Shown here: positions 5,378-45,892 of the stretch, in pieces
Position numbering within the stretch: position 1 is the first letter of the stretch
Layout of the letters: every line of letters begins with the position of its first letter
Virus record (IMG/VR): IMGVR_UViG_3300025009_000050
Span: 124,001-188,000 of that record
DNA length: 64,000 nucleotides
Strand: one strand, 5' to 3'
DNA from: a virus
Program-made: the position numbers and the translations under genes
The notes under the pieces: model-generated
Databases searched by the model: none
Told to the model about the DNA's origin: nothing
What the model saw: the letters and a program-made list of their open reading frames with translations, nothing else

Positions 5378-8300
5378 TATATCACCTCACTAATTTGACC
5401 CTTGATTAAAACCCTACCATCACTAGTAAATTTCATTCGGTTAGTTGACCCACTAGTTAACTCATACATCGTGTTGATTTCTTCTGGTATCAGCTCTCTA
5501 TTATATAATCTAAAATCATACATCTTACCTTTAAAGAAATCAGTCGGCGTGCTTCCATCCCAGTCTTGTCCAATGGCTAATGGGTTAGGATATATTCTAT
5601 CATTAATCTTGACTGTTAAATCCTGTTGCTTGTCGAGCTGTCCATTAATATACATTGCACAATTCAATTGTGTAGCATTGATATTCTTAATAACAAAACA
5701 AACATAATACCACTGTCCCACTGTTAAAACAGTATTGCCATCGAGTGATGCTCCATCACAGTAAAAGCGTAACTTTTTTATATCCATCAGTATTTGTGGA
5801 TTAAAATCATTGTCTCCAATCGTGCAAATATGAAATGATCCACTTAATGCGTCATCCAGGTTAATCCATACACAAAATGATATTGTATCAAATTGTGGTT
5901 TATACCCTGTGTTTATCCATCCATTGGCACCATTAAATATAGAGCATTGCCCTTCCGGGCCAGATGTATATGTTATGTTATTTTCTGTCCCATGATTTAG
6001 ATTACCTGACCTATCCTTAGCATCCCCATTTAAAGGCCACCATCCGACTAGGCCATCTATAATGCCAACCTCACTGATATCAAGCATATTCATTGTTCCT
6101 GTTTCTTTTAAATTAATAGGCTCACCATCTGTGATATCCTGTATCTTAAAGTTAGTAACATATAGATCTGTGCCCAAACTTCCAGTGCTAGTATACTGGA
6201 ATCCCCAGCACAAATCCCTATAGCAGTTATAAGACGTTCCAGCTACAAAAACACTATAGGTGGTAGTGCATACCTTCCAGATGTCATCAGTTATATTAAA
6301 AGTAGCATATATCTCTTTCCTGCCTTGGAAGTTTGATGGCAGAGTACTGTATTTAGATGCAGATACACTAGTTAGTCCGCCACCACCCCAACCCATTTGA
6401 TTAGAAAAATACATTGCGCCAATACCATTAGAACTTTGCCCTTCTATTATGAATGATATTCTATATTTGCAGCCTTTCTGTAGTATATTAGGATCTATAT
6501 TAAACAAGTTTACCTTTAATCCACCCCATACGGTATTACCACAATCTGGATAGATTAAATTAGGTGGTCTATATATTCTATAACCTCTTGTAGTCAGACT
6601 AACTTGACAATTGGATTGTGTATATGAAGATAATCCATTAGTAAATAAACGATTGATAATTGCGTTATTTGTTTCTTGAGCTATGTTTTCTAATTCATGT
6701 ATCTTCCGAACAAATAGATTCCCCTTATCATCTAGGCTAGCACGTTGTTGATAAAGCTCTTTGATATCATCTGCTGAGAGAGCAGTAGCATATATACGGA
6801 CATCATCAACAATGCCGTTGAACTGATAATTCATGCCATTTGAAGAAGACCCGAATCTCATCGGTGCTACTGAACCGCTGTATGATGTTAAAGAATATTG
6901 CTTAATATACTCACCATTTATATAAACTTTAACAACTGCACCATCCCAACTTGCTGCTAAGTGGTACCAAGTACCTAGAGTCGCTGTAACTGGAGTTTGT
7001 CCTGCTGACCAACCTACTCCAGTTACAGCTCCTATAGTAGCGGTTAAATAATCATTCAGATCGACACCCAACCAGTATTCAGTACTTCCTATAGAATTGT
7101 CGGGGCCTTTGTGTAAGACACATTCGTAATTACTTCCTTCACCTATCTTATTGAACCAAGACGATATTGTTAGTGACGTAGTGCCAGGTACGAAGTTTTC
7201 TATGCCCATGTAGTTATTAGTTCCATTGAACTTATAACATCCGCTACCTATCTTGCTATCGGGTATCCATTGAGGACAGTTAGCATCTAGCATTGTGTGA
7301 TTATTATATCCACTAGAATCATATGCCTTACCGTCTCTTGTCCCTTCTGTGAAAGGAGTTGCATGATCTTTAATCTCTATCTGCAAGTTGACAAGTTTAA
7401 TTGTATCCCCGATTAGAGCGCTACATAGGTCGCTATGTATTATCCATCCTGATGTACTAAATGTTTGAGTATACTCAAAGTAACCGTCATCTCTAGTTAT
7501 CTTATTTAAAGTATTCGTATGGTATGTTGATATACAAGGTACAGTTGTTTTGAAAGGCACATCATTTAAATACAGATATCCGCTAATGGTGTATATAGTA
7601 CCTGTAGTAACTGCTGATGTGAATGTACTACACTGTAGTGCTACTGTTTGTGACGTTGATCCAGATTGTCTATAGCAGGTATGTGTATTCCCATCTCTAC
7701 TATAGGTATAATAGGGAGTATAAGCTGTGATAGTATATTGAGCGTAGTTAATGGTATACTCTTGAAAATCATCAAATGTCCAATGCCCTACTAGTGCTTT
7801 ACTTAGTTCTTTAATCTCTTTGTCTGATAATGCATGGTTGTATACCCGAACATCATCTAGTTTACATAGAGGTCTATAACTAGAGCTGTCTAGATACCCA
7901 GTCGACCATGCAAATAAAGCTATCTTGTCAGGAGCACATTTCATAGTATACGTAACTGTATGTTCTTTGATGCCATCCACCCACAAAGTTATCTGCTTAA
8001 TGTTATCATCGTATCTCATAACTAGATGAGACCATTTATTATATATGTTAGAAGTTCCATAATACTCATTGTATGTTCTACCTGTCCCACTTCCAGTATT
8101 ACATGAAATTCTAAAATCAGTTGATGATATCTGTCTAACTGTTATACCAGCACCATAGTTAGTATTGTGATTATGGTTGGTAACTAAACCATTTGCAGAA
8201 GCTTCAGTCACAGTTACGAACGCCCATGTAGCCATAGTGAAGCTACCAGTCAAGTCAATATTCTCCGTTGTTGCTAAGTACTCAGATGTCTTAACTGTTC

Positions 8301-10516: not shown

Positions 10517-12136
10517 CTAACCTAAGTCGTAGTCTAATGCAATAGTGTCTGTAGCAATTGGTGCGGCAACAAATGTTATCGTCGCACTACTCACAGTATA
10601 ATCAGTAGTTAATTTTTGTCTTAGTCCATTCTTATATACTCTAACACTACTTGAATTGAGTGAGTGACCAGATGCTAACGTAAAGGCAACTCTTGCCCCA
10701 TCAGGAGTGTGTCCAACTGCAAATGCGGCATCATAATAGTGTGTGTGTTTCTTAGTTCCTGCTTCATCCCAAGTCTCAACCTTACTATAAGTTATATCCT
10801 GAATAGTAAGTGTTTCAGTTGAATCATAAAAGCTAATCTTATCAGTGTCTATAGTCATACTCTTAGTGCTTCCGTTAGCAGCAGGTACGTCGTTCATTAC
10901 GATCTTAGTTTTATCCCCGTCTTTATAGATCTCCATTCTATTAAATGGATTATGAGATGTTGATGCGATGGTAGCATTAGACTTATCAGACTTGAATATG
11001 ATTACTTTCTTATTAACATTATCAGTGATTATAGGAACAAACTCACGAGCTTCTTTAATATATGCATCTAATATTACCGATACACCAGCAGGGATTGTAA
11101 CTTTAGCTAGCAATATAGCACCCTGACTAGCTACAGGAGACCACTTATTTAAGATTAACGCGTCTTCACTAGGATCGCTTATGACCGCAAGTCCACCAAT
11201 TGTATAGATACCTGCCTCATAATGTCCAGAGATAAATACATAATGTATATATCCAGCAGTAAATGGACTCTCTGGAGTTGTCTCTTGTGTGAAGTTCTTA
11301 TACCCATAATTCTTGATATATAATTTACCATTTGCTACAGTAACTGTTTTACTAGTTAACCCAGCAGTAACCTCGCATCCAGATATTACTCCATACCCGC
11401 CAGCATTAATACTACAATTAAATATATCTGATGCATGATAGCCATCAAGTAGATCTGCATTCAAGTAATCGACTACAGTAGTAGCACAACCAGAGTTTAT
11501 GTCTAATGGTTTGCCAGAAGTTGCGCTACATTTAAACTGTGTAGCCGTGATATATCTTCCGGCAAAGTCACCATTACCATCTCGAACTACTACCTTGCTA
11601 ACCGTATTAGCAGATGTTGCATCAACTGCCCAGGTAGTTGCCGCACTTCCATTAAAGTTATTACCAGTTAGATAACTACCACGAGTTAATGTGTTAGTTG
11701 TATTAGCAGTAATGGTTATGTTGGCAGAACCATCAAAGTTAGTACCGTTGATAGTTACAGTAGATGCTAACTTAGTGGCTGTTGATGCATTGCCTGTTAG
11801 CGGGCCAGTGAACCCTACTGCAGTTATATTGCCAGCAGTTGTGATAGTCACTCTATCAACTGTGCTATAGAACCTTAAGTCATCAGAACTAGCTGGATTG
11901 TATATTTTCCATTTATCAACACCAGCAGCTTGTAACCTAATTCCAGCTTCTTGTATAGCTGGAGCGTCAGCTAAGAAGTACGAATTAGTAGATGTTAAAC
12001 TTAATGTTTTAATATCCTTAGATACATTAAGTACTCCACCTATACTGAAGTCACCAGCTAATGAAGCACTAGTTAAACCTGAATGGAGAGCTAAATACCC
12101 TCCGATAGTGCAACCGCCTCTGAGCTGATCTCCCAT
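10517..12136 (-). CDS. Tail fibre protein, 539 aa
   Basis: This is a fibre-type protein that starts with ATG at 12136, overlapping the previous stop (TAATG) behind AGGTGATC. The N-terminal ~80 residues (TNSYFLADAPA, WKIYNPASSDDLRFYST, RVTITTAGNIT) match an internal module of the 1211-residue fibre. Residues ~80-230 have fibre motifs (TFTGPL-type beta strands, YLNADLLDGYHASDIFN). Residues ~240-360 form a beta-rich domain with a predicted-looking strand pattern, and the C-terminal ~70 residues (GHTPDGARVAFTLASGHSL ... VRVYKNGLRQKLTTDYTV) resemble the small beta domain common at the tips of tail fibres. I infer a receptor-binding or fibre-shaft role. Confidence 0.75.
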   Translation of the reverse strand: MGDQLRGGCTIGGYLALHSGLTSASLAGDFSIGGVLNVSKDIKTLSLTSTNSYFLADAPAIQEAGIRLQAAGVDKWKIYNPASSDDLRFYSTVDRVTITTAGNITAVGFTGPLTGNASTATKLASTVTINGTNFDGSANITITANTTNTLTRGSYLTGNNFNGSAATTWAVDATSANTVSKVVVRDGNGDFAGRYITATQFKCSATSGKPLDINSGCATTVVDYLNADLLDGYHASDIFNCSINAGGYGVISGCEVTAGLTSKTVTVANGKLYIKNYGYKNFTQETTPESPFTAGYIHYVFISGHYEAGIYTIGGLAVISDPSEDALILNKWSPVASQGAILLAKVTIPAGVSVILDAYIKEAREFVPIITDNVNKKVIIFKSDKSNATIASTSHNPFNRMEIYKDGDKTKIVMNDVPAANGSTKSMTIDTDKISFYDSTETLTIQDITYSKVETWDEAGTKKHTHYYDAAFAVGHTPDGARVAFTLASGHSLNSSSVRVYKNGLRQKLTTDYTVSSATITFVAAPIATDTIALDYDLG

Positions 12137-15063
12137 TAAGTGATCACCTGCCCTGTCATAATAGAACCTTGAACTTGCAGTTTAGACTTCTCATCCATTT
12201 TAGTTTGGTAAATAGCTTTTATCTCATCATCCGTTAACGCTCTAGGAACATAAATTAGATCTTTATAATATGAGTTTGGATACATTCCGCCAAAAGAGCC
12301 CATACCAAAAAAGCTACCATTCCATGATGTTATCCCACCATTGATAGTTATAACATTGCTTTTGGTTTCATCTTTGAAAACATGGAAGGAATTTATAGTT
12401 CCACTAGATCCGCTAAGAACAATAGCATGCATGTGCCATTTCATGCGATCAGCCTCACCTGTATATGGTGTCATTGCACCACCGCCATAAGTCCAACCAC
12501 TGTCTACGTTGTTCTTTACATATGCACAAATATTAGTACCAGAATTAGATGGTCCAAAATTCCATAAGGTGAAAGAAGCATTTGAATAGTAGTTGCCTAT
12601 CTCAAACATATTTGGGTAGGTGGTTTGAGTTGCATCATATGCACTATTTGGCTGAAGGCTTTTCCTCCAAAATAGAAATGTTGCATTATCAGATAAGGTC
12701 AATGGCCACTTAATACTTCCAGCACTTCTAGTCCCGTTGGCAAATGGAGTAGGAAATGAACGTTGTTCTAGTTGCATTTCTGTCACCAAACACTCTAATG
12801 CTCCATCACCAATAAAGCCAACCCCAGCACATAAAGTTGTACCAACAATTTGTCCTACAGTATAGCATAAATACCAACCATCAGATAATACTTGATATAC
12901 TAATGAACCGCCAGTTCCACCACCAAAATGAGCACGTATTCTTTCAGAAACTGTCCCGCCACTAAGCATTTTAATTTTAAAACTTAATGTATAGTAAGTA
13001 TTAGCTAGACAGGTTCTGCAGTCTCTAAATGAAGCATGAGTAGAAGGAGTTCCAGCTATCTTCGTTACCTTAGCTATCTTACTCCTGTTATATCTAGTAG
13101 TATACTCGGCCCAGGATAATGTTCCGTTAGCGTCAACAACATTAATATTAGTTAACTCACTTTGAGGAGAAGCATAAATATTGGTTGTCGCGTTTCCAAC
13201 CCATACTGATCCATCCTCATACACCGTATTAGCTTCAGTAGACGGACTTATTAACTTATACTTATCTTTACTATCGCAACCAAGTGAGAAGTATTTAGCA
13301 TCACTAGGGATCTCATTAGGTTCAGTAACTACTTGAGATGCAATCAGGTTACCAGTAGGAGTAAATTGGAAAGAAGGATTGACAAGTTCTTTTGCTTCTG
13401 ATTCAGATAGTGCTCTATTATAGATTGATAGATTTTTAAATATCGCGTTACTTCTGTTCCAACCCCATCCTAAATATATAATAGGGACATTCGAACTGTT
13501 AGCGGAACCTACTGTAGCAAGAGTTCCAAGCAGAACTCCATCTGCATAGAAAAATTGAGTAGTATTGTCCCAGCTAATTGCTATGTTAATCCACTTATTC
13601 TTTTGTGGAATATAAGCTGGAGACGATGTTACCGATAAACCTCCACTACCTTCATGCATGTAAAATTGACCATTACTATTCAAATATATGCCCCACCATT
13701 TACTGTTATATTGCGCATTAGATATTACGGTTTCACTAATGCCATCTCCTTCTAAATAGTAATCAAAGGCTATCGTAGAATTACTGGATAGTTGAGTCGA
13801 AATACCGAATGTCCCATCTCCTCTACTTCCATTAACATAAGAAGTTGAGAAAGCCTTGTTTTCTATCTGGACAGCCATAATATCAGCCTTTGTTACTCCA
13901 CTAGCGTACAAGTGTCTACCACCACTAGTACCAGTTGACGCTTTCGTTATATATACCCATTTGCCTAATGGAGTGTTTGATGAATTCATAGTTATCTTGT
14001 AAGATGGGTTATTGAGATCCCCCCATTCTATTTGTCCGTAGTGAAGTTTAATCCATATAGAATAAGATATACTTCCTGAAGTGTTTCCTATGTTGCCAGC
14101 AACCCAGCCACCCCAGCCACCACCATAGGTCTCGATTCCTTGCGCTTTTGTTAAGCCTGGGACTGGAGAATCATATACAGGGACAATTTCTACCTTATAG
14201 TTACCTATCCCAAAACGTTCACTCCAATTATTGCCAAAACCACAAACATTGCCAGTGTATCCAATGGCGTAAGACTCCATATTAGAAATTACAATTTGAT
14301 TTATAGTAGCCTCTTCTACTGCTATACCATCATATGTTAGAGTAGTATTGGAGTTAGTTATATTACCCTTACTCTTGCCGAGTGTATATAATATAGCTTC
14401 CTTATGAAATGAGAGTACATTGGAATCGCCCTCTTGGTCGAAGAACAACACTGCTCCACTAAATGACTCATAGATATAGCCGGTTATTTGATTAGTATCA
14501 GATCTACGATAAAATGGAATAGCCCCATTCTGTAATTGATCGATCCCACCATATAGATCAGCGATACCAGCAGATGGATACATTAGACTGTCTGTATATA
14601 TTGGAATATTGGGTTCTATCAATATATCATGGGTAGCATGGGCTGTTGCAGTATATGTTTTAACAAACACATTAGTCCTTGTATCATTACCCTGGGCTAT
14701 CACAGAAACACCAGCATCAACGAACTGTTTTAACTTGTCCATTATATTACTAGAGAAACCCCAGACATAATAGTCACAGATTATCAAATCATACTGAAGT
14801 GCTGTCGCGACATCAACAGTTGTTAAGTCAGTAGAATTAGTGATAGTTGCTCCTTGTGATATAAGCCAATTATACCAATAGTGTGTGCTCTGATAATGGC
14901 CCAACACTTTAATCCCAGCCAGCGATCTAATTTTGTTGAGGGTTTCATCCATAGGATAGTGTGCAACTAGCCCGTCTGTTATAACGGGCAGTCGTGTGTT
15001 TATATCCCCAGATATGCGAAGGTCGCCATCTTTAGTAAGTTCCCCAGCTATGAATTCAGACAT
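12136..15063 (-). CDS. Adhesin with GATase-like and LamG-like domains, 975 aa
   Basis: The N-terminal ~40 residues (RLPVITDGLVAHYPMD) are shared with the partial adhesin at 1-1730. Residues ~50-235 read as a Rossmann-like glutamine amidotransferase-like fold: IKVLGHYQS, then YDLIICDYYVWGF, FVDAGVSVIAQGND and SGAVLFFDQEGD. No nucleophilic cysteine is seen at the usual elbow, so it is probably a binding rather than a catalytic module. LamG-like domains lie at ~425-570 (ends LSIYNRALSESEAKELV) and ~785-955 (ends LIYVPRALTDDEIKAIY). A CBM-like segment at ~640-780 has the TEMQLEQRSFPTPF ending typical of such modules. The start follows AGGAGG. Probable cell-surface glycan adhesin on the tail. Confidence 0.75.
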   Translation of the reverse strand: MSEFIAGELTKDGDLRISGDINTRLPVITDGLVAHYPMDETLNKIRSLAGIKVLGHYQSTHYWYNWLISQGATITNSTDLTTVDVATALQYDLIICDYYVWGFSSNIMDKLKQFVDAGVSVIAQGNDTRTNVFVKTYTATAHATHDILIEPNIPIYTDSLMYPSAGIADLYGGIDQLQNGAIPFYRRSDTNQITGYIYESFSGAVLFFDQEGDSNVLSFHKEAILYTLGKSKGNITNSNTTLTYDGIAVEEATINQIVISNMESYAIGYTGNVCGFGNNWSERFGIGNYKVEIVPVYDSPVPGLTKAQGIETYGGGWGGWVAGNIGNTSGSISYSIWIKLHYGQIEWGDLNNPSYKITMNSSNTPLGKWVYITKASTGTSGGRHLYASGVTKADIMAVQIENKAFSTSYVNGSRGDGTFGISTQLSSNSTIAFDYYLEGDGISETVISNAQYNSKWWGIYLNSNGQFYMHEGSGGLSVTSSPAYIPQKNKWINIAISWDNTTQFFYADGVLLGTLATVGSANSSNVPIIYLGWGWNRSNAIFKNLSIYNRALSESEAKELVNPSFQFTPTGNLIASQVVTEPNEIPSDAKYFSLGCDSKDKYKLISPSTEANTVYEDGSVWVGNATTNIYASPQSELTNINVVDANGTLSWAEYTTRYNRSKIAKVTKIAGTPSTHASFRDCRTCLANTYYTLSFKIKMLSGGTVSERIRAHFGGGTGGSLVYQVLSDGWYLCYTVGQIVGTTLCAGVGFIGDGALECLVTEMQLEQRSFPTPFANGTRSAGSIKWPLTLSDNATFLFWRKSLQPNSAYDATQTTYPNMFEIGNYYSNASFTLWNFGPSNSGTNICAYVKNNVDSGWTYGGGAMTPYTGEADRMKWHMHAIVLSGSSGTINSFHVFKDETKSNVITINGGITSWNGSFFGMGSFGGMYPNSYYKDLIYVPRALTDDEIKAIYQTKMDEKSKLQVQGSIMTGQVIT

Positions 15064-35362: not shown

Positions 35363-38300
35363 TCACATTCCATATTCATTAATAGTCATTAACCTTATTT
35401 TGATTTCTGTTCCAAGACCACTAATAGAATCGTATATTGTTATCTTGTTATACGTTGCGTCTGGAAGTTCTTCATGACTTATCTTAGGCGCTGTATACAT
35501 GTAGATATGCCTACCAGCTACACTATTGGTTGAATAAGATGAGCCTGTGTTCTTTAGCTCAACGGTATCTCCAACAATGTATTTAATAAGTCCTCCAGTG
35601 ATCCGATTACCAGATACAAGTGCTATCTTATTCATAGACAGCTCTAAGTCTACATTATTAGTAGGATTACCGTGTTTATCAACTGTTTCTATTATGATAG
35701 TAGACATATCTACTCCATTACACAATAGATTACTTGGGCTTAGATTTACTCTGAAATGACTTAATTCGCTTAAGTCATTTGTTATATACATGAATCCATT
35801 ATGATTAGGATTATAGAGTGGGTTTAGCTCTGCTGTGTTCGCTAGAGAGTAATTGAGAGAGTTTTTCTCGTAAGTTATAGTGAGTGGTTCGCCTGTATTC
35901 TGACCTAGGCGAATATATGCGGCTCCATATTTTCCGTTAGAATCCCATATATAACAGTCTCTCAACTGGTATATAACCTTTAACCTCTTTCCTTTTAATG
36001 CTTCAGCCTCATCGGAAGTTAATGTCATTGTTACTTCACTACCATTTATGGACAAGGGATCTCCTATTATACTGTTCTTATCATTATACACTACTGTTCT
36101 AAACTTGTCAACCTCTAGATCAGAAAAAGTTAAAATAATCTTATTGGTTCCATCACTGATGAATTCCTCTGTATTATATGTTGTATATTCACCAGTTGTT
36201 TCATCAGAAAAAGATACCTTGCGTAGTGGAGTACCATCTTGTTTCTGTATCACTAAGGGTGCTCTTTGTTGAGGAGCTGGATTAATAGCTACGAATGACC
36301 CATCGAAGGTTTCATTTATGTTCCCCTCAAATCCACATTTCATAGTCATAAGATTGGAATCAAAGTCTAATGTAGTAGAGGTGTATATACTACTGATGGT
36401 CTCTGTGGAGGGAGCGTACTTAAACATTACTAAGTCATCTAGGATACAGTTACAGTTATCTCCGAGTGAGTTTCTAGAATTTCCAATACATAATGATTTC
36501 GTCTTATGTGTGCCATCGCTGTTCCTACCATCAAATAACGATATAGACATGGGGCTACTGCTATGAATATCGTTAACATACATGTTGACATTACCAGTTA
36601 AATTATTCCATGTCACAGCTAAATGGTTCCACGCACTCAGTGAATCTGAGAAAGTATAGGAGATATCCTGTAATAATGAGTCATTCATAGAAACAAACTT
36701 TATTGATCCATTCTCATATTTAAGAACAATATAATTACTCGCGTCTTCCCATACTTCAAAGAATACAGGACTGGATGTCATAGCCCCATCCATTGTTGTA
36801 TTAGACTTAAACCATAATGATATTCCACCAGGATTAGAATAATTGTAATGCATGGGATAAGTTATGATAGCATTTTCATGGTCGGTATTAGCACCCTTCT
36901 CATATCTTCCATCCACATAACTAATATCGCTAGACAAAGGCATATGTTCATCACCAATAATAATTATTTCTGGTTCTGCATACATAAAGTATCTTTGCTT
37001 GTTAATATAATAGAACCCATTATGTACCTGAGGTAACCAATTGTCCTTAGGGTTTAGGTTGTTGAGCGTACCAACTACATTGCCATCTTTAATGTATGTC
37101 TTAACCCAAATGTTGTTACTGTCTACTATATATACTAAGGTGTCTGTATTTATATTGTCTGGAATTTCAATATCAGGTATAGCTTCTATCATGTCGTTGC
37201 CAGAAGATACCTTCTTACCGCTACAAGTTACTACATTACTAACCCATATATCGTTCTGTATTATAGGTTCTGTGTAATCGCAAGAGAATACTACGTTAGC
37301 ATACCTATAATCTGTATACTTATATGAGATATAATACTTTGCTTCGGCTGCTGGTTTCCTTTCATTTAACGACCAATCGATGTAATTTCCGTTCTGAGTA
37401 TAATCGATATCCTTTATATAGTCTACGAATAACGGATCTGATACATAGGGCGAATCATATACTCCGTCTATACTGGTAATAAAGTTATTCGGAAGAACAT
37501 CGGTGTCTCCAGAACCTCTAGTCATAAGATGCATTATCTCTAATGTGTTATCAAATTTTACAATTGTCAGAGTATGTGGTAGTCTTGGTGAGTCACCATT
37601 GACTATGTCATCAGAAATGGTAAAGTTATTGCACCTGACACTACCTTCTACTATTTCCAACACATATGGTTGATTTGATAATATAGCTTCTGGGTCTAGT
37701 TCAGGTAGAATTATACCATTCAAGACATAGTTGTTCTTTATAGAATTGGCATTGACAAATGCTCCTTGTATTATTTTAGACTCAGATACCCATGGGGTAG
37801 GAGCAGCTGCTGTTGGAGCGTATATCTTCGCACAGATATTGTCTCCTTCAAGACTTGAAACCATATTCCACGTAGATGGATTACCGCTTGGTGTGTCAGT
37901 ACTTAAACTATTCCAAAATATATCTATTACTCTATCATCTTCATTCACATTTCCTTCTATAGGATAGCCTGGACTGTCCCATCCCATTTCTAAAAAGTAC
38001 TTATACAACTTATTTCCATTCATTATCACATTAGAGTTACCTGGGCAGATAAAGTAAGTATACATTGGTATCTCACTGGTAAGTGGATATACTACTGACG
38101 CTGCTCCGTATTGATAAAATCTCTTATTCTGCGAGTTGCTTGTTTCAGAACAGTATATCCTCAAGGAATCCGTTTGACTTAGTGTAGTTGATTCGCCAGA
38201 TCCATATCCTTTGCTATTCCAATAAAGGGTTACATAAGGTAATCCTGTCCTATTTATGTGCGTGTACGCAGGATACAAACTTCTTCCAGCCACACACTCT

Positions 38301-39742
38301 TGTTCTAACCCTTGAGGTATTGTGAGTTTACCATCGTGATGTGGCTGGTTGTCTGAACTAGCAAGTACCAATATATCAACCAAATTAACTAATTCTTTAT
38401 CGCCAGTATTATTTGAATCCACAGAAGATGTATCACCAGGTATTATCACATTCTCTTCATAAGTTGACTTACAGCGTAATTCAAATTCACTTACGTATGG
38501 TGTTGGATATGAGGATGAGCTTCTAGACAATATAGCCTTAATCTTAATCGGTACTGTTATAGGATTGCTAGCCATTTGAGTAATATCAGCCCAATTACTT
38601 GCTCCTTGATATGGAAGTCCACTGTAATAATCAACCCACTGCCCATCGATACTAGCTAGTATTTGATATCTGACTTTCATATTCTCTGTAATATTACCGT
38701 GAATATCATTATTGACAGTTCCGCTCCAATCTATAGTCCGATACTTTTCCCATACTGTGAGATTTTCAGGAGTGATAGCATTAGATACTACTTCTCCATA
38801 CGAGCTTCCTTCCTTTAATCTTATCTGATTAGTGTCATCTTGCGTATATGGTGCACTTAGGATTGTCCAAACACTACCATTATTTGAAGATTGAGTTTGA
38901 ACATATATCCTAGTACTACTAGGAGTAGTAGTAGTGTAAATTATATCTGTATATTCTTTAAATGATGGACCGAATCTAAACGTAGCAAAGTACTTACCAG
39001 TATTCGTATGATTAGCAACGTTGCCCGAATTAAGTTCGAACCTAGATACTTCAGGAGTAAGAAGATTATCAGAACTAGCTAAATGTATCTTAGCCTTTAT
39101 TCTATTCTTACTTGAATATGATGACGATGTAGCAGATACTGTCCATTGGTTGCCGGTAACATGTGTGTATACTGGCGTACATAGTTCCCAATTTGACCAT
39201 ACGGATTCATCTATATATAGAGTGCTTTCGTCATCGTAAGCTGCACTAGTTTCGACAGATATATCTGTAACAACACAAACGAAGTTACTTATGTTTATAG
39301 AGTTCGTATCCGTGTTCGTTATTTCAACTTCGTATTGAGCATAAGAACTTGTATATGATGATAAATCATACGAGGCTCCAGTTGTCATAGGCACAGTTAC
39401 AACATCAGTATTAACAACAGAACCATTAACTAGCTTCTTGACAGTAACTTGAGCGGTGCCAGATGCAGTATTATAATTTAAAATTATATTTCTAGCTGCA
39501 ACACTTAGAGTGGCTTTTGCGTTAAGGACGCTGGTCGAACCACCAACCCAATTGTCACTATATATTATGTTGCTACTATTGTAGAGATAAGTAGCAGTTG
39601 GTAATATAGTATTTAGAACTATATTAACAGACCCATTTAATACATTACCAGTATTGAATATATTAGTTATGTATTGACCAGAGTAAGCAGAGGTGACTCC
39701 GAAATATGAAGTTCCGTATATATTCTTGCCATATTGTGCCAT
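35363..39742 (-). CDS. Large tail adsorption protein with LamG-like domain, 1459 aa
   Basis: The N-terminus (YGTSYFGVTSAYSGQY) shares a YFGV motif with the start of the 701-residue protein on the other side of the radical SAM gene. Residues ~1-450 are beta-sandwich segments of the type seen in baseplate-proximal phage proteins, with a TPYVSEFELRC pattern like that in the 701-residue protein. Residues ~965-1115 are LamG-like (GGISLWFKSNTT, WNHLAVTWNNLTGNVNMYV, CILDDLVMFKYAPS). Around 1335-1372 is an invasin-type Ig-like strand pattern (TIIIETVDKHGNPTNNVDL). The ATG at 39742 uses the last codons of the radical SAM gene (AGAAGGAGA) as its ribosome binding site, so the two are translationally linked. 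Probable host-recognition protein; it could be an alternative substrate of the maturase. Confidence 0.7.
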   Translation of the reverse strand: MAQYGKNIYGTSYFGVTSAYSGQYITNIFNTGNVLNGSVNIVLNTILPTATYLYNSSNIIYSDNWVGGSTSVLNAKATLSVAARNIILNYNTASGTAQVTVKKLVNGSVVNTDVVTVPMTTGASYDLSSYTSSYAQYEVEITNTDTNSINISNFVCVVTDISVETSAAYDDESTLYIDESVWSNWELCTPVYTHVTGNQWTVSATSSSYSSKNRIKAKIHLASSDNLLTPEVSRFELNSGNVANHTNTGKYFATFRFGPSFKEYTDIIYTTTTPSSTRIYVQTQSSNNGSVWTILSAPYTQDDTNQIRLKEGSSYGEVVSNAITPENLTVWEKYRTIDWSGTVNNDIHGNITENMKVRYQILASIDGQWVDYYSGLPYQGASNWADITQMASNPITVPIKIKAILSRSSSSYPTPYVSEFELRCKSTYEENVIIPGDTSSVDSNNTGDKELVNLVDILVLASSDNQPHHDGKLTIPQGLEQECVAGRSLYPAYTHINRTGLPYVTLYWNSKGYGSGESTTLSQTDSLRIYCSETSNSQNKRFYQYGAASVVYPLTSEIPMYTYFICPGNSNVIMNGNKLYKYFLEMGWDSPGYPIEGNVNEDDRVIDIFWNSLSTDTPSGNPSTWNMVSSLEGDNICAKIYAPTAAAPTPWVSESKIIQGAFVNANSIKNNYVLNGIILPELDPEAILSNQPYVLEIVEGSVRCNNFTISDDIVNGDSPRLPHTLTIVKFDNTLEIMHLMTRGSGDTDVLPNNFITSIDGVYDSPYVSDPLFVDYIKDIDYTQNGNYIDWSLNERKPAAEAKYYISYKYTDYRYANVVFSCDYTEPIIQNDIWVSNVVTCSGKKVSSGNDMIEAIPDIEIPDNINTDTLVYIVDSNNIWVKTYIKDGNVVGTLNNLNPKDNWLPQVHNGFYYINKQRYFMYAEPEIIIIGDEHMPLSSDISYVDGRYEKGANTDHENAIITYPMHYNYSNPGGISLWFKSNTTMDGAMTSSPVFFEVWEDASNYIVLKYENGSIKFVSMNDSLLQDISYTFSDSLSAWNHLAVTWNNLTGNVNMYVNDIHSSSPMSISLFDGRNSDGTHKTKSLCIGNSRNSLGDNCNCILDDLVMFKYAPSTETISSIYTSTTLDFDSNLMTMKCGFEGNINETFDGSFVAINPAPQQRAPLVIQKQDGTPLRKVSFSDETTGEYTTYNTEEFISDGTNKIILTFSDLEVDKFRTVVYNDKNSIIGDPLSINGSEVTMTLTSDEAEALKGKRLKVIYQLRDCYIWDSNGKYGAAYIRLGQNTGEPLTITYEKNSLNYSLANTAELNPLYNPNHNGFMYITNDLSELSHFRVNLSPSNLLCNGVDMSTIIIETVDKHGNPTNNVDLELSMNKIALVSGNRITGGLIKYIVGDTVELKNTGSSYSTNSVAGRHIYMYTAPKISHEELPDATYNKITIYDSISGLGTEIKIRLMTINEYGM

Positions 39743-39747
39743 CTAAC

Positions 39748-41031
39748 TTATCTCCTTCTTAGTTCTAATTTTAAATCAGCGACTTCAAGACGTAGGTTGT
39801 TATTAGTATTTTCTAAGTTTATTAACCTTTCCATCAAACTATCTACCGATGGGGTTATGCTATTAAATAAATCCTCTGTATTCTTTTGTCTGCTTATTAT
39901 ACTGGAGAGCTTATTATTCATTCCATCAATTAAAGTTGAAAGCTTCTCTTGTTGTAAATTGTCTATGTTCAGTCTATCTCGAAGTTGTTTACCAATTATA
40001 CTATCAACCTTTACGGTTTTACAATGTTCTGAAGGACTTACAAACATGTCTCCGCACACCTCAAGATTACAGGCTAAACACCTATCACAATATGAATCGT
40101 GTTCACACTCATAACACTTCTCTAAACTACTTCTATTATAACTACGGAATATACTAGATTTGTCTAAGTTAATACCCGTATGAATGCTACCCATTTTATA
40201 GTCTTCTGTTCCTCTGTTTCTGTCGTAAGTATAGAACCTAAGGCATGGATATATGTCTCCATTAGGAGTTATCCCAATTGATTTATGTCCAGCTCCACAT
40301 GTCTTATCTGGGTTGATGTAAGGTGGTAAACCAAGATAATGACTAAGTGGATCGAAAGTAAAAGACTTCCCAGACCTATGAAGCCCATACATATAGTCAC
40401 TTATCATCCTCAACTGTCTTTGATATTCCTTAACTTCCTTCTCTGACCAGGTAGTTTCTTGTACGCATTGTGTCTTAATGTTATTAATACCATACTTATT
40501 ATGATAAAATATGACACTTTCAGCTAAGTACTTAACGTTATCTGGTTGTATCGTTATGCGAACAGAATAGTTAATTGATGGTCGAGCAACCTTTGGTAGG
40601 TTGACATCGACCATATCAAATGAATCTTTACCGTTAGCCATTGGTCTGTTCTTATTCTGCACCTTAGCAATACCGTCGATACTAAATTGGATATCGTCTA
40701 TTTCTTCTATTACATCTATCATATCGTCTGTTAATAATGTTAGGTTAGTAGACATACCAATTTTACATTGCTTCCCAGTTTCTTCTTCCTTAGATCTTAT
40801 ATATGGGATAATATGTTTGATAACATCAAAGTTTAGTAGTGGTTCCCCACCAAATAGTTCCACTAGCAGTTTATTGCTACCAGAAGTAAATAGCATATCT
40901 ACAGAAGACTTAGCTAAGTTTAAGGTCATAACACTGCTAGCCTTACTCTGCTCATAGCAATAAACACAACGCAGATTGCAATTCTCTGTAAGCATTAAAT
41001 ATATACAATCTATCTTTGTATTAGATAACAC
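39748..41031 (-). CDS. Radical SAM/SPASM maturase-like enzyme with C-terminal coiled coil, 427 aa
   Basis: The [4Fe-4S] motif C18-x3-C22-x2-C25 (CNLRCVYCYE) binds SAM, and GGEP at 61-64 is the usual SAM-binding loop. A SPASM region follows: C245-x12-G-x4-C263 (GITPNGDIYPC), then C306-x2-C309-x5-C315-x2-C318-x2-C321-x4-C326 and C337, enough for two auxiliary clusters. SPASM enzymes modify peptides or proteins by radical chemistry, for example thioether or C-C crosslinks, epimerisation or formylglycine. Residues ~343-427 form a heptad-like coiled coil unusual for the family. The start is a GTG at 41031 behind GGGAGGAATC. It lies 12 bases after the 701-residue tail protein, whose C-terminus is Cys-rich, and 5 bases before the 1459-residue tail protein. 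The target is inferred, not shown. Confidence 0.9.
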   Translation of the reverse strand: MLSNTKIDCIYLMLTENCNLRCVYCYEQSKASSVMTLNLAKSSVDMLFTSGSNKLLVELFGGEPLLNFDVIKHIIPYIRSKEEETGKQCKIGMSTNLTLLTDDMIDVIEEIDDIQFSIDGIAKVQNKNRPMANGKDSFDMVDVNLPKVARPSINYSVRITIQPDNVKYLAESVIFYHNKYGINNIKTQCVQETTWSEKEVKEYQRQLRMISDYMYGLHRSGKSFTFDPLSHYLGLPPYINPDKTCGAGHKSIGITPNGDIYPCLRFYTYDRNRGTEDYKMGSIHTGINLDKSSIFRSYNRSSLEKCYECEHDSYCDRCLACNLEVCGDMFVSPSEHCKTVKVDSIIGKQLRDRLNIDNLQQEKLSTLIDGMNNKLSSIISRQKNTEDLFNSITPSVDSLMERLINLENTNNNLRLEVADLKLELRRR

Positions 41032-41043
41032 AATGATTCCTCC

Positions 41044-43149
41044 CTATTCGCTATAAGAGTGATTTCCACAATGTCCATAGCATCCACAATAATATGTGTT
41101 GGCTGAAGTTTGCACCCAATCACTAGCTACTTCATTTCCATCTACTGAGCGAATACGATACTGATAGTAACCTAGCTCGTTAATAGTATGAGTATAAGAC
41201 GTTGCTTTACTCATACTACCATTATTATATTCTCTAGTGATAGACAAATTATTTATAGCCATACCCCAAGTTCCACTACTTTGCCAGTATCTTGGTACGA
41301 CAATAAATTTGGCTACCACACTACTAGTTATTGTGGTATTAAAAGAATAAGTAGTATCGTATTGGGATGCAGTTATATAAGTACTAGTTGGTAACCAATT
41401 ATTTGTCTCTTCGTTATAATACACTATCATCCATTCGAGACCAAGAGTTCCAGAAGACACGTAGAATCCACATGATATATTGGTGACTCCAGAAAGCATA
41501 TCGAATGTTACAGGGTTTTCATAGAACCAACGATTGCTATCATAATAGTAGTAACATTGAGAGCCCAAATACCATGTAATAGCTTTAGTTTCGATAACAG
41601 GAGATCCACCGAGTCCATTCCATACTACTTTATTATTAAGTTTATAATTTAACTCGTAGTGGTCAAGAAGATTACTGGCTTGTGGAGATAAAGGATACAT
41701 AGAGTCCGTCTTATTTCCGAACTTATCTATAGTACATATATTGACATATCCATTCCATGTTACATCCCACTCATGAGATATCTCATAATAGGCTTTTCCT
41801 GTATTGCTAATAATAGTATACAACCAGTAGTCAGTTCCATTTGAATACCATACCTCATAAGCAGCAACATCTTTTGAATAGCTTGGATACCAGCTATATT
41901 CAAGATTAGGATTAGTAGATGTTGCTGCTATCCAGCTAACATCTATTGTATTGTCTGATTGAGAAGAGGAGCTAGAACTAATAGAGCCTGGAGGGTTAAG
42001 AGATAGATAAGTAAAGTACGGTAGTTGCCTCATCGATGGAGCTACAGGAGCTATATCAACGATACTAACAAGTTTCTCTTGTAATTCAATAAGATGATCA
42101 ACGTTTATAACAGTAGTTCCACCTTGTTTAATGTAAGAGGAATTCCAGGTTGTGTTGTCTTCATTTATAGAAATACTTTTAATAGCTGATGCTATCTCTA
42201 TAAAATCAGTATCCCTGATGTTATTAACTTGATTACCTGTTATAGATGTTGTTATAACAGGTAATCCGTATTTAGGAAGCATGTTGTTTATTGCATCACG
42301 AAGTTCAGTTATTTCTGAAGACCTAATTGTACCACGTCGTCTTGTAGGGGTAGTTATCACAGGTTCGTCATGAGTTATAATATTTATTGATGATAGTATT
42401 GGAGTTATACTATCATCAATAGTTGTTAAAGTAGCTCTTACCTGAATACGATCAAAATTGTTATCTGGACTATGGATATATCCTGTGTAAGGTATACTGA
42501 CCCAGTCACTCCAAGAATTATTTCTACTCGTTCTAGCTTCTATTGTACAAGTAGTGCCTGTTGGAATATATGCTAACCAGCTAATTCTTACATTACTAGA
42601 ATTCATAGAGGTATACGTATTCGATGTATATGTTCCATTAGTGTAATATCCTTCTCTATAAAATGGACCCCACCTGATATGATCTATCCATGCGTAATCA
42701 GTTTTTCCATAATTGTTATATTTAAAGTAGCCTATAAATATATAATCATTAGTTATACCGTCATTTAATGTTACAGTCTCTTCTTTCCAATCAGATGAAG
42801 AACCAGTGTATAAAATATTGTTTCCTGCGCCTTTGACATACATATATCCATCTAGTGTTTGGCGTTGAGTTTTATATTTGAATATAAGTTTGCCACCTGC
42901 TGGTATATTTAAAGTTCTATAGACAAAGTTATCGGTAGAATAGTATGGCGCAGAATTAATAAGGAATGAATCATTACTTATATCCCAATTATAGTAGCCT
43001 CCATGTGTAAGCCACTCACCAAACGAACTGCAATCCCATTGTTCGTACCATTCTGTAGAATGCCTACTCAGCTTGGCTGAAACAGCATCAACTGTTAAGT
43101 TCGTGATGTCAGCATTTATTCTGAAATCAGAAACTCCGAAATAAGCCAT
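41044..43149 (-). CDS. Tail protein with Cys-rich C-terminal tail, candidate maturase substrate, 701 aa
   Basis: This is a beta-rich adsorption or baseplate protein. Residues ~1-165 resemble a galactose-binding module (GGKLIFKYKTQ ... WIDHIRWGPF). FN3-like domains include RISWLAYIPTGTTC, AAYEVWYSNGTDYW and the terminal YQYRIRSVDGNEVASDW. A serine-rich linker (SISSSSSSQSD) sits mid-protein. Directly after the last FN3-like domain comes a short tail with C688, C690, H693, C694 and H697 and three glycines (YCGCYGHCGNHSYSE). Such a tail after a folded domain resembles a RiPP core appended to a carrier. The next gene downstream is the radical SAM/SPASM enzyme. I infer post-translational modification of this tail; a plain metal-binding tail is the alternative. 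Start ATG at 43149 follows AGGAGGG. Confidence 0.75.
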   Translation of the reverse strand: MAYFGVSDFRINADITNLTVDAVSAKLSRHSTEWYEQWDCSSFGEWLTHGGYYNWDISNDSFLINSAPYYSTDNFVYRTLNIPAGGKLIFKYKTQRQTLDGYMYVKGAGNNILYTGSSSDWKEETVTLNDGITNDYIFIGYFKYNNYGKTDYAWIDHIRWGPFYREGYYTNGTYTSNTYTSMNSSNVRISWLAYIPTGTTCTIEARTSRNNSWSDWVSIPYTGYIHSPDNNFDRIQVRATLTTIDDSITPILSSINIITHDEPVITTPTRRRGTIRSSEITELRDAINNMLPKYGLPVITTSITGNQVNNIRDTDFIEIASAIKSISINEDNTTWNSSYIKQGGTTVINVDHLIELQEKLVSIVDIAPVAPSMRQLPYFTYLSLNPPGSISSSSSSQSDNTIDVSWIAATSTNPNLEYSWYPSYSKDVAAYEVWYSNGTDYWLYTIISNTGKAYYEISHEWDVTWNGYVNICTIDKFGNKTDSMYPLSPQASNLLDHYELNYKLNNKVVWNGLGGSPVIETKAITWYLGSQCYYYYDSNRWFYENPVTFDMLSGVTNISCGFYVSSGTLGLEWMIVYYNEETNNWLPTSTYITASQYDTTYSFNTTITSSVVAKFIVVPRYWQSSGTWGMAINNLSITREYNNGSMSKATSYTHTINELGYYQYRIRSVDGNEVASDWVQTSANTYYCGCYGHCGNHSYSE

Positions 43150-43161
43150 TATTTAACCCTC

Positions 43162-44247
43162 CTAGTCATCATATACTGAAGTATGAGAAGGCATTATAAT
43201 TATACTATCTATATATAGATAACCCACTGCTGCGTTATGACGCCATACACCGAAATAGAATCTATTAAGGTTATCTGATGTTGGTGTGTGATCAAATGTT
43301 ATATATAACATTTCATAATTACCAGGGTTCTCAAAGTCTTTAGCATATATATTTCTAACGTTTTGTTCTAAAACGTTTCCAACTGATAACTGGCATACCA
43401 TTGCTTCTGCATCTGGAGGATCAGTTATTTTTATTCTAAATCCTACTACAAATTTACCATATCGTAATTTCTGATATCCACCAGTAGGTCCAATTATCAT
43501 AAATTCATTTGTAGTACCACTCTTAACAGAGTATCCAGAGTATGCTTTATCATCACTAACTTTGGTAGAACTTATCCCTTCGATATGGTCTTGTGCATCC
43601 CATTCTCCATATAACCCACCAAAGAACTTATTATCAAGATATAAGTCACCAGTTATCGGATAACTTGTTCCTGCTGTACGTGGGAATTGTGCATCAATAG
43701 AATCTTTAATCGTTCTATTGTCTGTACTAGACATTTTTATGTCAGTAGCCATTAAAGAACTATTGGTAACGCCAAGTTCTATAGCTGTTTTTGGTAATAG
43801 TCCCTGTACTTCACTTGCTAAATCAACTTTAGATGGTGAAGCAGTTCCACCAAGATGCTTATGGGCATACAATGTATCTCTAGCAGAATCATACGTCCAT
43901 CCCACACTATTAGCTGTAATATACCTAATGTCATAGTCCTTATCCTCTAAGTTTTCTATACGAGCCTTTACTGTTTTAAAGTCACCTTGCGGCATTATAC
44001 CTAACGTTCTTTCAACACATAACATAGCTTCCTGTAAAACATTTATATGTGCAGCCATTATATAGGTGGTATAATCTGTTTCAGGATTCATATCTGTATT
44101 TTCATGTTGTTCTCCAATAGTATATACTAAGTTAGCATTGTCAGCAGAAGGAAAACGCAAGTCTGTAACAGCAGCGACAGGGTATCTTGAATCTATTTGT
44201 GCTGGATATTGTGTCTTAGTTAAGTCAGAATATAAAGTATTTGCCAT
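43162..44247 (-). CDS. Tail fibre adaptor / carbohydrate-binding protein, 361 aa
   Basis: Residues ~65-107 carry AAHINVLQEAMLCVERTLGI followed by MPQGDFKTVKARIENLE. This matches the N-terminal module of the 4122-residue fibre, suggesting both dock onto the same baseplate site. Residues ~130-200 have fibre-type motifs (LYAHKHLGGTASPSKVDLAS). The C-terminal ~150 residues look like a galactose-binding/CBM-like beta-sandwich (GGLYGEWDAQDHI, GYSVKSGTTNEFMII, YLYIDSIIIMPS). It follows the tail protein I-like gene by one base and precedes the 701-residue protein by 12. The start ATG at 44247 has AGGAGTGA upstream. Likely the first fibre-network component attached to the wedge. Confidence 0.7.
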   Translation of the reverse strand: MANTLYSDLTKTQYPAQIDSRYPVAAVTDLRFPSADNANLVYTIGEQHENTDMNPETDYTTYIMAAHINVLQEAMLCVERTLGIMPQGDFKTVKARIENLEDKDYDIRYITANSVGWTYDSARDTLYAHKHLGGTASPSKVDLASEVQGLLPKTAIELGVTNSSLMATDIKMSSTDNRTIKDSIDAQFPRTAGTSYPITGDLYLDNKFFGGLYGEWDAQDHIEGISSTKVSDDKAYSGYSVKSGTTNEFMIIGPTGGYQKLRYGKFVVGFRIKITDPPDAEAMVCQLSVGNVLEQNVRNIYAKDFENPGNYEMLYITFDHTPTSDNLNRFYFGVWRHNAAVGYLYIDSIIIMPSHTSVYDD

Positions 44248-44248
44248 C

Positions 44249-45892
44249 TTATATCACTCCTACGTTGAGTTTTAAACTATTACCGCTCACTACACAGTTG
44301 TTCATTTCGCCATTTCTCCAGTCACTATCATTGTCAATGATTTGTTGAAAGTCTCCATAACTAAGCTCTACATGATTGTTAACAACTTCAGTGTTTTCTT
44401 TAGTGATATGTATCAATGGAAAAGGACCAGAGTCATTTGAAAGGTCATCTGTTCTCTCGAATAATAATCCTGAATTAAGAGTAGTAGTGTGTTCAATATC
44501 AGATGTGTCTTTCCAGCCAACAGTAATAGAATTCAGTAATGGAGTGTCGTTAGTATCATTTTCCATTGTTACTATAACTTTAAGATATGGTCTAGGAGTT
44601 ATTCCATCAACACTTGGACTCATTATTTTATTACTATTAACTACCTCAAGGGTTGTAGACATACTTTCTACTGTGTCCCAGGATATGATGGGCCATTGAT
44701 TATACTCACGTTTCCCATTGATAACTATGTTATCCTGTAGATCTATGTTCTCTGCGGCCACTATGGTGTACTTGAACTCCTCGACATTGGGGGTGTTCTC
44801 TATCTTGGTTCCCTTTGCCAATATCCTATAGCTGAAAGTGTGCTCTGGATACCTCACTTCACTGCTATCAATAGCAGCTTGTGCTTGAACGTAGTATTCA
44901 AATTCTTGTTCACTACTTTCATTCTTAGGCGAATTGACGTATAAGTCAAGGCCACAACCTACTCCACTCTGGAAGTCTTCATCCACCCATCCTTCAGTAG
45001 AAGCATTCCAAACATGTGGTAAGTAATCAAATCCTAACTTTGTATGCTCAAGAGACCTCCAATATGCTTTATCCCAACTCATGTTATCCCATGTATTAGC
45101 AATCTGATCATTTATTATTCTTGCATATTTCTTAAGCTTGTCACTAGCACTACCGTCCTCGTTAAGTAGTGAGTCACGAAATGCTATATCACATAATTCC
45201 TTTATCTCAACATCGCTAGTACCCAAGAGTCCAGTAATACCATTCTTTAGTCCTACTAAAGTAGGACCACCACGTAATAAGAATACGTTCTTTAACCTGT
45301 CTCTATATCTTTGATTATCTTCTTTAAATAATCTTGGAGTACCTAATAATAATCCAATTTCATCAAAAGAGTTCCAGATATGATGGATTGCAAATTCGCT
45401 AATGTATAATCCTCCATCATCATCTTCTCCATCATATGCATCAACGTGTAAATATTCAAATTCTATTGAACAATCACTTGGTCTACGGATGTAACATATG
45501 CCTGTATCATAATCAACCATACAGAAATCAGTATTACCAAGATAGAAGTCTTCATAGCTCGTCACTTCTTTTACATCAAATGGTTCGTATATGTTAGTGT
45601 CATTATCTTTATATTTAGCTCTGAAAGATAACTTCTTCCAACCATCAAGCAAGATAGGATATAGATCTGTTTTCCATACATAGTCTATCTTGCTTATATC
45701 AGCAGTATCTAGATATTGACTATTAATCATATCGAGTATATATTCTTCTACTTGCTCAAACTCTAATCCAGGTGAGTTAATGAATTGTGTACCTAATGAA
45801 TTCTCATTGGTTCTCATTGTCATCCAGCTAGGAAGATATCTGAGCATCTTCTTCGTTACATTACTTAAAGGAAAACTATCGTTATATGACAT
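44249..45892 (-). CDS. Baseplate/tail protein I-like wedge protein, 547 aa
   Basis: It follows the J-like gene by 11 bases, the usual position of tail protein I or a gp53-like wedge protein. The N-terminal ~250 residues fit the family pattern: LRYLPSWMTMRTNE, EQVEEYILDMINSQYLDTAD, and RYRDRLKNVFLLRGGPTLVG at the point where wedge proteins carry the conserved RDRL/GGT segment. The C-terminal half (residues ~280-547) is extra beta-rich sequence with a TPLLNSITVGWKD strand pattern, also seen in the downstream adsorption proteins. It probably links the baseplate wedge to the fibre network. Start ATG follows AGGAGGG. Assignment rests on gene order plus the weak family pattern. Confidence 0.7.
   Translation of the reverse strand: MSYNDSFPLSNVTKKMLRYLPSWMTMRTNENSLGTQFINSPGLEFEQVEEYILDMINSQYLDTADISKIDYVWKTDLYPILLDGWKKLSFRAKYKDNDTNIYEPFDVKEVTSYEDFYLGNTDFCMVDYDTGICYIRRPSDCSIEFEYLHVDAYDGEDDDGGLYISEFAIHHIWNSFDEIGLLLGTPRLFKEDNQRYRDRLKNVFLLRGGPTLVGLKNGITGLLGTSDVEIKELCDIAFRDSLLNEDGSASDKLKKYARIINDQIANTWDNMSWDKAYWRSLEHTKLGFDYLPHVWNASTEGWVDEDFQSGVGCGLDLYVNSPKNESSEQEFEYYVQAQAAIDSSEVRYPEHTFSYRILAKGTKIENTPNVEEFKYTIVAAENIDLQDNIVINGKREYNQWPIISWDTVESMSTTLEVVNSNKIMSPSVDGITPRPYLKVIVTMENDTNDTPLLNSITVGWKDTSDIEHTTTLNSGLLFERTDDLSNDSGPFPLIHITKENTEVVNNHVELSYGDFQQIIDNDSDWRNGEMNNCVVSGNSLKLNVGVI

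Follow-up and report, generated by a model that had tools for sequence, protein, structure and literature searches.

A radical SAM/SPASM enzyme encoded behind a Cys-tailed baseplate/fibre-region protein of a phage: a putative maturase of a virion protein

The window analysed here, a stretch of 64,000 bases (124001-188000 in a virus record of 244,052 bases), encodes a 427-residue radical SAM/SPASM enzyme directly behind a 701-aa baseplate/fibre-region protein that ends in a short tail rich in Cys, Gly and His. The enzyme is of the peptide-maturase type and probably acts on a virion protein, and we think it fairly likely that it serves as a virion-protein maturase which installs thioether crosslinks in the C-terminal tail of its neighbour. 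A wider proposal, to which we give an even chance, is that the radical SAM maturases of many unrelated tailed phages thioether-crosslink the Cys-rich tails of their own tail-fibre or baseplate proteins into protease-resistant tips, the window, whose tail counts 15 residues, being a minimal case. The usual view of phage adsorption proteins is one of unmodified fibres that fold by themselves. If the proposal is true, crosslinking by enzymes would add a new level to virion maturation, would account for phage proteins that are rich in Cys and have no assigned role, and would carry RiPP-type chemistry beyond small peptides to structural proteins of large size.

The two genes belong to a baseplate/fibre module on the minus strand, in which a 268-aa baseplate wedge protein is followed by the 547-aa, 361-aa and 701-aa proteins, the enzyme and the 1459-aa protein (Table 1). 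An earlier note on this DNA had placed the enzyme 12 bases behind the 701-aa gene; the ORF coordinates bear this out, and the ribosome-binding site of the enzyme gene (TAGGGAGGAATCATTGTG) shares bases with the stop codon of the gene in front of it. The tail that the note had described is likewise present residue by residue: between Y687 and E701 it holds C688, C690, C694, H693 and H697, the other positions being Gly, Tyr, Asn or Ser, and among the complete proteins of the window this ending is unique. Of proteins 150 aa or longer, 4 of 145 in the 244 kb record as a whole, and 0 of 298 in phage loci lacking a radical SAM gene, carry at least three Cys in their last 15 residues. A search of 50,697 phage records gave no match to the 701-aa protein. 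When the tail motif CGCYGHC was sought by exact matching in DNA, 33 matches were obtained, all of them chance reads in short or unrelated frames.

Table 1. Features of the locus, in window coordinates.
Feature	Position	Strand	Basis
1459-aa fibre-type protein, MAQYGxNxYGTSYYG-type start	35363..39742	-	
Radical SAM/SPASM enzyme, 427 aa, GTG start	39748..41031	-	ORF, Pfam, motifs, AlphaFold model
12-base gap, ribosome-binding site GGGAGG overlapping stop of upstream gene	41032..41043	-	
701-aa baseplate/fibre-region protein, FN3-like end, proposed substrate	41044..43149	-	synteny with KLEB27-3 gp044
C-terminal tail YCGCYGHCGNHSYSE, residues 687-701, CxCxxxC spacing, proposed crosslinked region	41047..41091	-	
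361-aa protein	43162..44247	-	syntenic with KLEB27-3 gp043
547-aa baseplate-type structural protein, query for finding syntenic relatives	44249..45892	-	

Other Cys-rich proteins occur in the same record. A 158-aa protein (L014:13596-14072), a possible second substrate and considered below as a substrate in trans, has a hydrophobic start and a His/Ser-rich stretch and ends in CGGDYGGCGCD. Small Cys-rich proteins near the right end of the record (L020:3028-3234, 6148-6420, 11508-11753 and 12069-12254) share similar patterns, for example CCxNC then CxC; one of them was sought in eight relatives and gave no match. The genome also encodes, at 76551-77630 (L014:16551-17630), a 359-aa SPASM-domain protein of phrog_7293 whose N-terminal Cys-rich stretch lacks the standard CxxxCxxC, and four proteins share a start like MKIRTDFVTNSSSSS (L013:15413-15868, L014:19653-19946, L015:406-894 and L015:897-1301).

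The assignment of the enzyme to the radical SAM superfamily with a SPASM domain follows from its motifs and Pfam scores. The CxxxCxxC core, GGEP loop and SPASM cysteines that had been read from the sequence are all there: C18-C22-C25, F60-G61-G62-E63-P64 and seven cysteines (C245, C263, C306, C309, C315, C318 and C337), and the scores exceed the cut-offs for both Radical_SAM (46.8 bits, cut-off 29.5) and SPASM (21.9 bits, cut-off 21.5). The best NCBIfam models are those of thioether-forming peptide maturases, and the enzyme scores below the cut-off of each, with 215.8 bits against 340 for PapB (NF047865), 160 against 425 for the SCIFF maturase (TIGR03974) and 154.9 against 350 for the CXXX-repeat maturase (TIGR04115). 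In place of the Cys-X3-Asp/Glu repeats of PapB substrates the 701-aa tail has a single C-x6-E, no SCIFF peptide was found among the adjoining ORFs, and the locus lacks the small leader-bearing precursor and the leader-binding domain of a RiPP pathway, its partner protein being 701 aa long. Because the enzyme stands outside these cut-offs and its partner is unlike a RiPP precursor, we class it as a variant of a known enzyme type.

The enzyme has an AdoMet barrel, and its CxxxCxxC begins at residue 18, compared with a median offset near 112 in bacterial relatives, which leaves no room for an N-terminal RRE, and no leader-binding (RRE-like) domain is found at its N-terminus. The AlphaFold model (mean pLDDT 86) predicts a long, coiled-coil-like helical pair at the C-terminus (334-381 and 386-426) and is closest to CteB (5why/5wgg; E 2e-25, TM 0.71). 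The SPASM region has a short CX2C, as do 34 of 52 classifiable phage enzymes, versus 3 of 74 bacterial ones.

We propose that the enzyme, translated from the same operon, would act during assembly, probably in an anaerobic host, and that its target would be the Cys-rich C-terminal tail of the 701-aa protein. AdoMet would yield a 5'-deoxyadenosyl radical that takes hydrogen from an acceptor residue, and the SPASM clusters would hold a Cys thiolate so that sulfur-to-carbon (thioether) bonds form, a chemistry predicted from family and fold. One candidate bond would span C694-x6-E701, a spacing that fits the Cys-Xn-Asp range accepted by PapB, and other acceptors are possible. The adsorption or baseplate protein would thereby end in a small and rigid knot, resistant to reduction, and the crosslinked tail may contribute to stability or receptor binding. 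Since the enzyme has no leader-binding domain, it would probably recognise its partner protein in the folded state, with the C-terminal helices of the enzyme perhaps taking part. The phage encodes the anaerobic ribonucleotide reductase NrdD, a protein resembling the activating enzyme NrdG and a second small radical SAM protein (L013:131-2224, L013:5832-6446; L015:6920-7534), a set that suggests an anaerobic host.

The pairing of enzyme and tail can be examined in phages that have kept the surrounding genes. The order of 547-aa homologue, 361-aa homologue, FN3-type protein and MAQYGxNxYGTSYYG-type protein is conserved in Bacillus phage KLEB27-3, in the IMG/VR contigs L056 and L057-L060, and in G006/G007. 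In these four syntenic lineages no radical SAM gene lies between the FN3-type and MAQYGxNxYGTSYYG-type genes, and the FN3-type protein has no Cys tail. The counterpart of the 1459-aa protein stands directly 3' of the FN3-type protein in most relatives lacking the radical SAM gene, and in L056 a TPR protein occupies the position of the enzyme. Sequence and profile searches of the relatives' records found no equivalent of the enzyme elsewhere, bar a distant, different radical SAM protein in the L056 genome, and among TerL relatives 1 of 18 records matched the enzyme profile, weakly. Judged from these sequences, the one locus with the enzyme gene also has the Cys tail, and four lineages have neither; the FN3-type proteins are matched with the 701-aa protein by their position and by weak similarity (BLASTP E 0.001 over part), which limits this test of paired absence, and the presence side at the exact locus is a single phage. 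The earlier note had asked whether tail and enzyme are always gained and lost together; relatives keeping the tail without a radical SAM gene, which would have spoken against its reading, were not encountered among those available. Scans of viral contigs with a single sequence, be it that of the enzyme or that of the 547-aa protein, returned no relatives. Another relative phage (G001, IMGVR_UViG_3300042922_000643) encodes at L062:928-2694 a different radical SAM protein, nearest to AmcB (72.5 bits, with a cut-off of 425). Its gene comes immediately after that of a 176-aa protein and is followed by a third gene with a PECC motif; the C-terminal half of the 176-aa protein has 14 aromatic-x-Asp/Asn triplets where 4.75 are expected, a motif class used by cyclophane-forming enzymes.

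A survey of related enzymes shows how often such a neighbourhood recurs. An alignment-based scan gave 329 viral loci with enzyme relatives, of which the best 79, from the best 80 matches, were analysed; the enzymes were picked by one sequence pattern and reduced to 60 distinct ones, and a Cys-rich partner was defined as a protein encoded on the same strand, no more than three genes away, that reaches 20% Cys or more over 30 residues. Such a partner lies beside the enzyme in 43 of the 60 distinct phage loci drawn from the best 79 of 329, while at this threshold the other 17 have none in that range; a few of the surveyed loci, such as L072, are probably bacterial. Among near ORFs 51 of 341 are Cys-rich, versus 2 of 454 in other viral loci (p = 9e-18) and 11 of 434 farther away in the same loci (p = 2e-10). 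The Cys-rich stretch is the C-terminal tail of an otherwise ordinary protein in L134, L102, L137, L082, L132 and L147 and an insert inside a larger tail-region protein in L103, and neighbours of the surveyed enzymes match tail fibre, tail, baseplate and collagen-like minor tail families. The window shares this arrangement of a radical SAM gene within a tail/baseplate operon, adjoining a same-strand Cys-rich or Cys-tailed protein; its tail has three Cys, as against roughly 8-170 in most survey partners, is shorter than most of them and would fall below the survey's Cys-rich threshold. Matches labelled Bacteriophage sp. MT83xxxx were discarded as phage evidence, since those first read were bacterial loci, two of them with SCIFF peptides. 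In L074, L116 and L121, one phage locus each, several different radical SAM-like genes lie within a few genes of each other.

Enzyme and partner also vary together. Across 41 loci, enzyme distance correlates with the difference in Cys spacing (r = 0.42, p = 0.0002) and in inter-Cys residue composition (r = 0.65, p = 0.0002; Mantel permutation for both), as is expected if enzyme and partner evolve together, with whole-locus inheritance contributing. Enzymes of the TIGR04115-like clade pair with CXXX repeats, and the CxCxxxC spacing of the window tail occurs in L116, L084, L120, L117, L100, L103 and L074 and never in the CXXX-repeat clade. The closest relatives of the window enzyme, among the best 79 of 329, are about 30% identical to it. 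By tree distance it is nearest to L100, then L082 (a CXXX locus), L074, L091 and L084, with all bacterial enzymes farther away; its branch is long and its placement weakly supported (0.50-0.86), and the tree was used for distances only.

Cultured phages provide further examples. Two adjacent radical SAM genes occur in Salmonella phages SPN3US, STsAS and SPAsTU and in the Erwinia phages phiEaH2 and Asesino, and the enzyme of these phages was found in 61 phage records. In SPN3US, STsAS, phiEaH2 and Asesino the twin genes lie behind small proteins with Cys-rich C-terminal regions, and one small Cys protein of SPN3US/phiEaH2-type phages ends in a short four-Cys tail (SHYNCNGGCSWSCSGSCSRGAGNR). SPN3US (L344:6692-7721), and likewise the SPN3US-like jumbo phages of L341 and L345, has three small Cys-rich ORFs between gene 167, an annotated virion structural protein, and genes 163/164, annotated just as radical SAM; this stretch of SPN3US is partly without a gene in the deposited annotation. 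Gene 168, which also precedes the cluster, encodes a virion tail protein assigned to the baseplate/fibre (PMC5105663). The SPN3US Cys protein, when sought across phages, is found in roughly the same phages as the enzyme, several of the matches being weak and partial. One proteomics study of SPN3US set Cys carbamidomethylation as a fixed modification (PMC10052503), and thioether-linked peptides would therefore have escaped detection there. With its published genetics and proteomics, SPN3US allows direct testing. The idea of a maturase-substrate pair on a virion protein, put forward in the earlier note, has thus gained comparative backing from the paired absence, the 43 of 60 loci, the tail modules, the spacing code and the cultured examples.

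The enzyme might instead be a peptide maturase that acts in trans on another protein, one of the small right-end Cys proteins or the 158-aa protein, with the 701-aa tail incidental. Such proteins do exist in the record, and several survey loci have Cys-rich partner genes three or more genes away; however, the candidates lie tens of kilobases off in non-structural regions, and the 701-aa gene is favoured both by its overlap with the ribosome-binding site of the enzyme gene and by the joint lack of enzyme and tail in relatives, and we consider a substrate in trans unlikely. A reading that we hold to be more unlikely still dispenses with the enzyme altogether: the tail, with its CxCxxxC and two His, could hold zinc or an Fe-S cluster and serve as a metal-binding or disulfide cap, and the radical SAM gene would be unrelated cargo between structural genes, at a site that accepts other genes, as the TPR protein of L056 shows. 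Against this stands the recurrence, in many phage loci, of this enzyme group together with tail-module proteins rich in Cys, which would then be coincidental in the window.

The tail might also be modified by C-C or ether crosslinks, by epimerisation or by oxidation of Cys, Tyr or His to a new group, and several of these reactions lie within the repertoire of radical SAM/SPASM enzymes. The tail also contains Y, H, N, G and S, and a relative phage pairs a different radical SAM protein, nearest to the cyclophane type AmcB, with a protein in which aromatic-x-Asp/Asn triplets abound. The families and the fold nearest to the window enzyme are those of thioether formers, however, and Cys is the feature common to the partners; of the readings considered, other chemistry seems to us the least likely.

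The proposed thioether crosslinking of the 701-aa tail can be set beside known systems. A phage radical SAM enzyme that modifies a virion protein has not been reported in the literature covered, in which subscription journals and preprints are thinly represented. PapB, the best curated model for the window enzyme, makes Cys-Xn-Asp thioether bonds with n = 0-6, also uses Glu and is tolerant of spacing (PMC9413430), which compares with the one Cys-x6-Glu of the tail; it acts on a peptide with a leader, whereas the window partner is a large structural protein. CteB, the SCIFF maturase, is the closest solved structure and also has a Cys-rich substrate, but the phage enzyme lacks the N-terminal leader-binding domain, has the short SPASM CX2C and adds C-terminal helices. 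TIGR04115 includes some of the surveyed phage enzymes beside CXXX-repeat proteins, for example that of L086 (429 bits, cut-off 350), whereas the window tail is CxCxxxC rather than CXXX and its enzyme is a non-member. SPN3US and phiEaH2 differ from the window in having two enzymes, separate small Cys proteins, GxC-type repeats and enterobacterial hosts, and are like it in that their radical SAM genes adjoin Cys-tailed proteins near baseplate/fibre genes.
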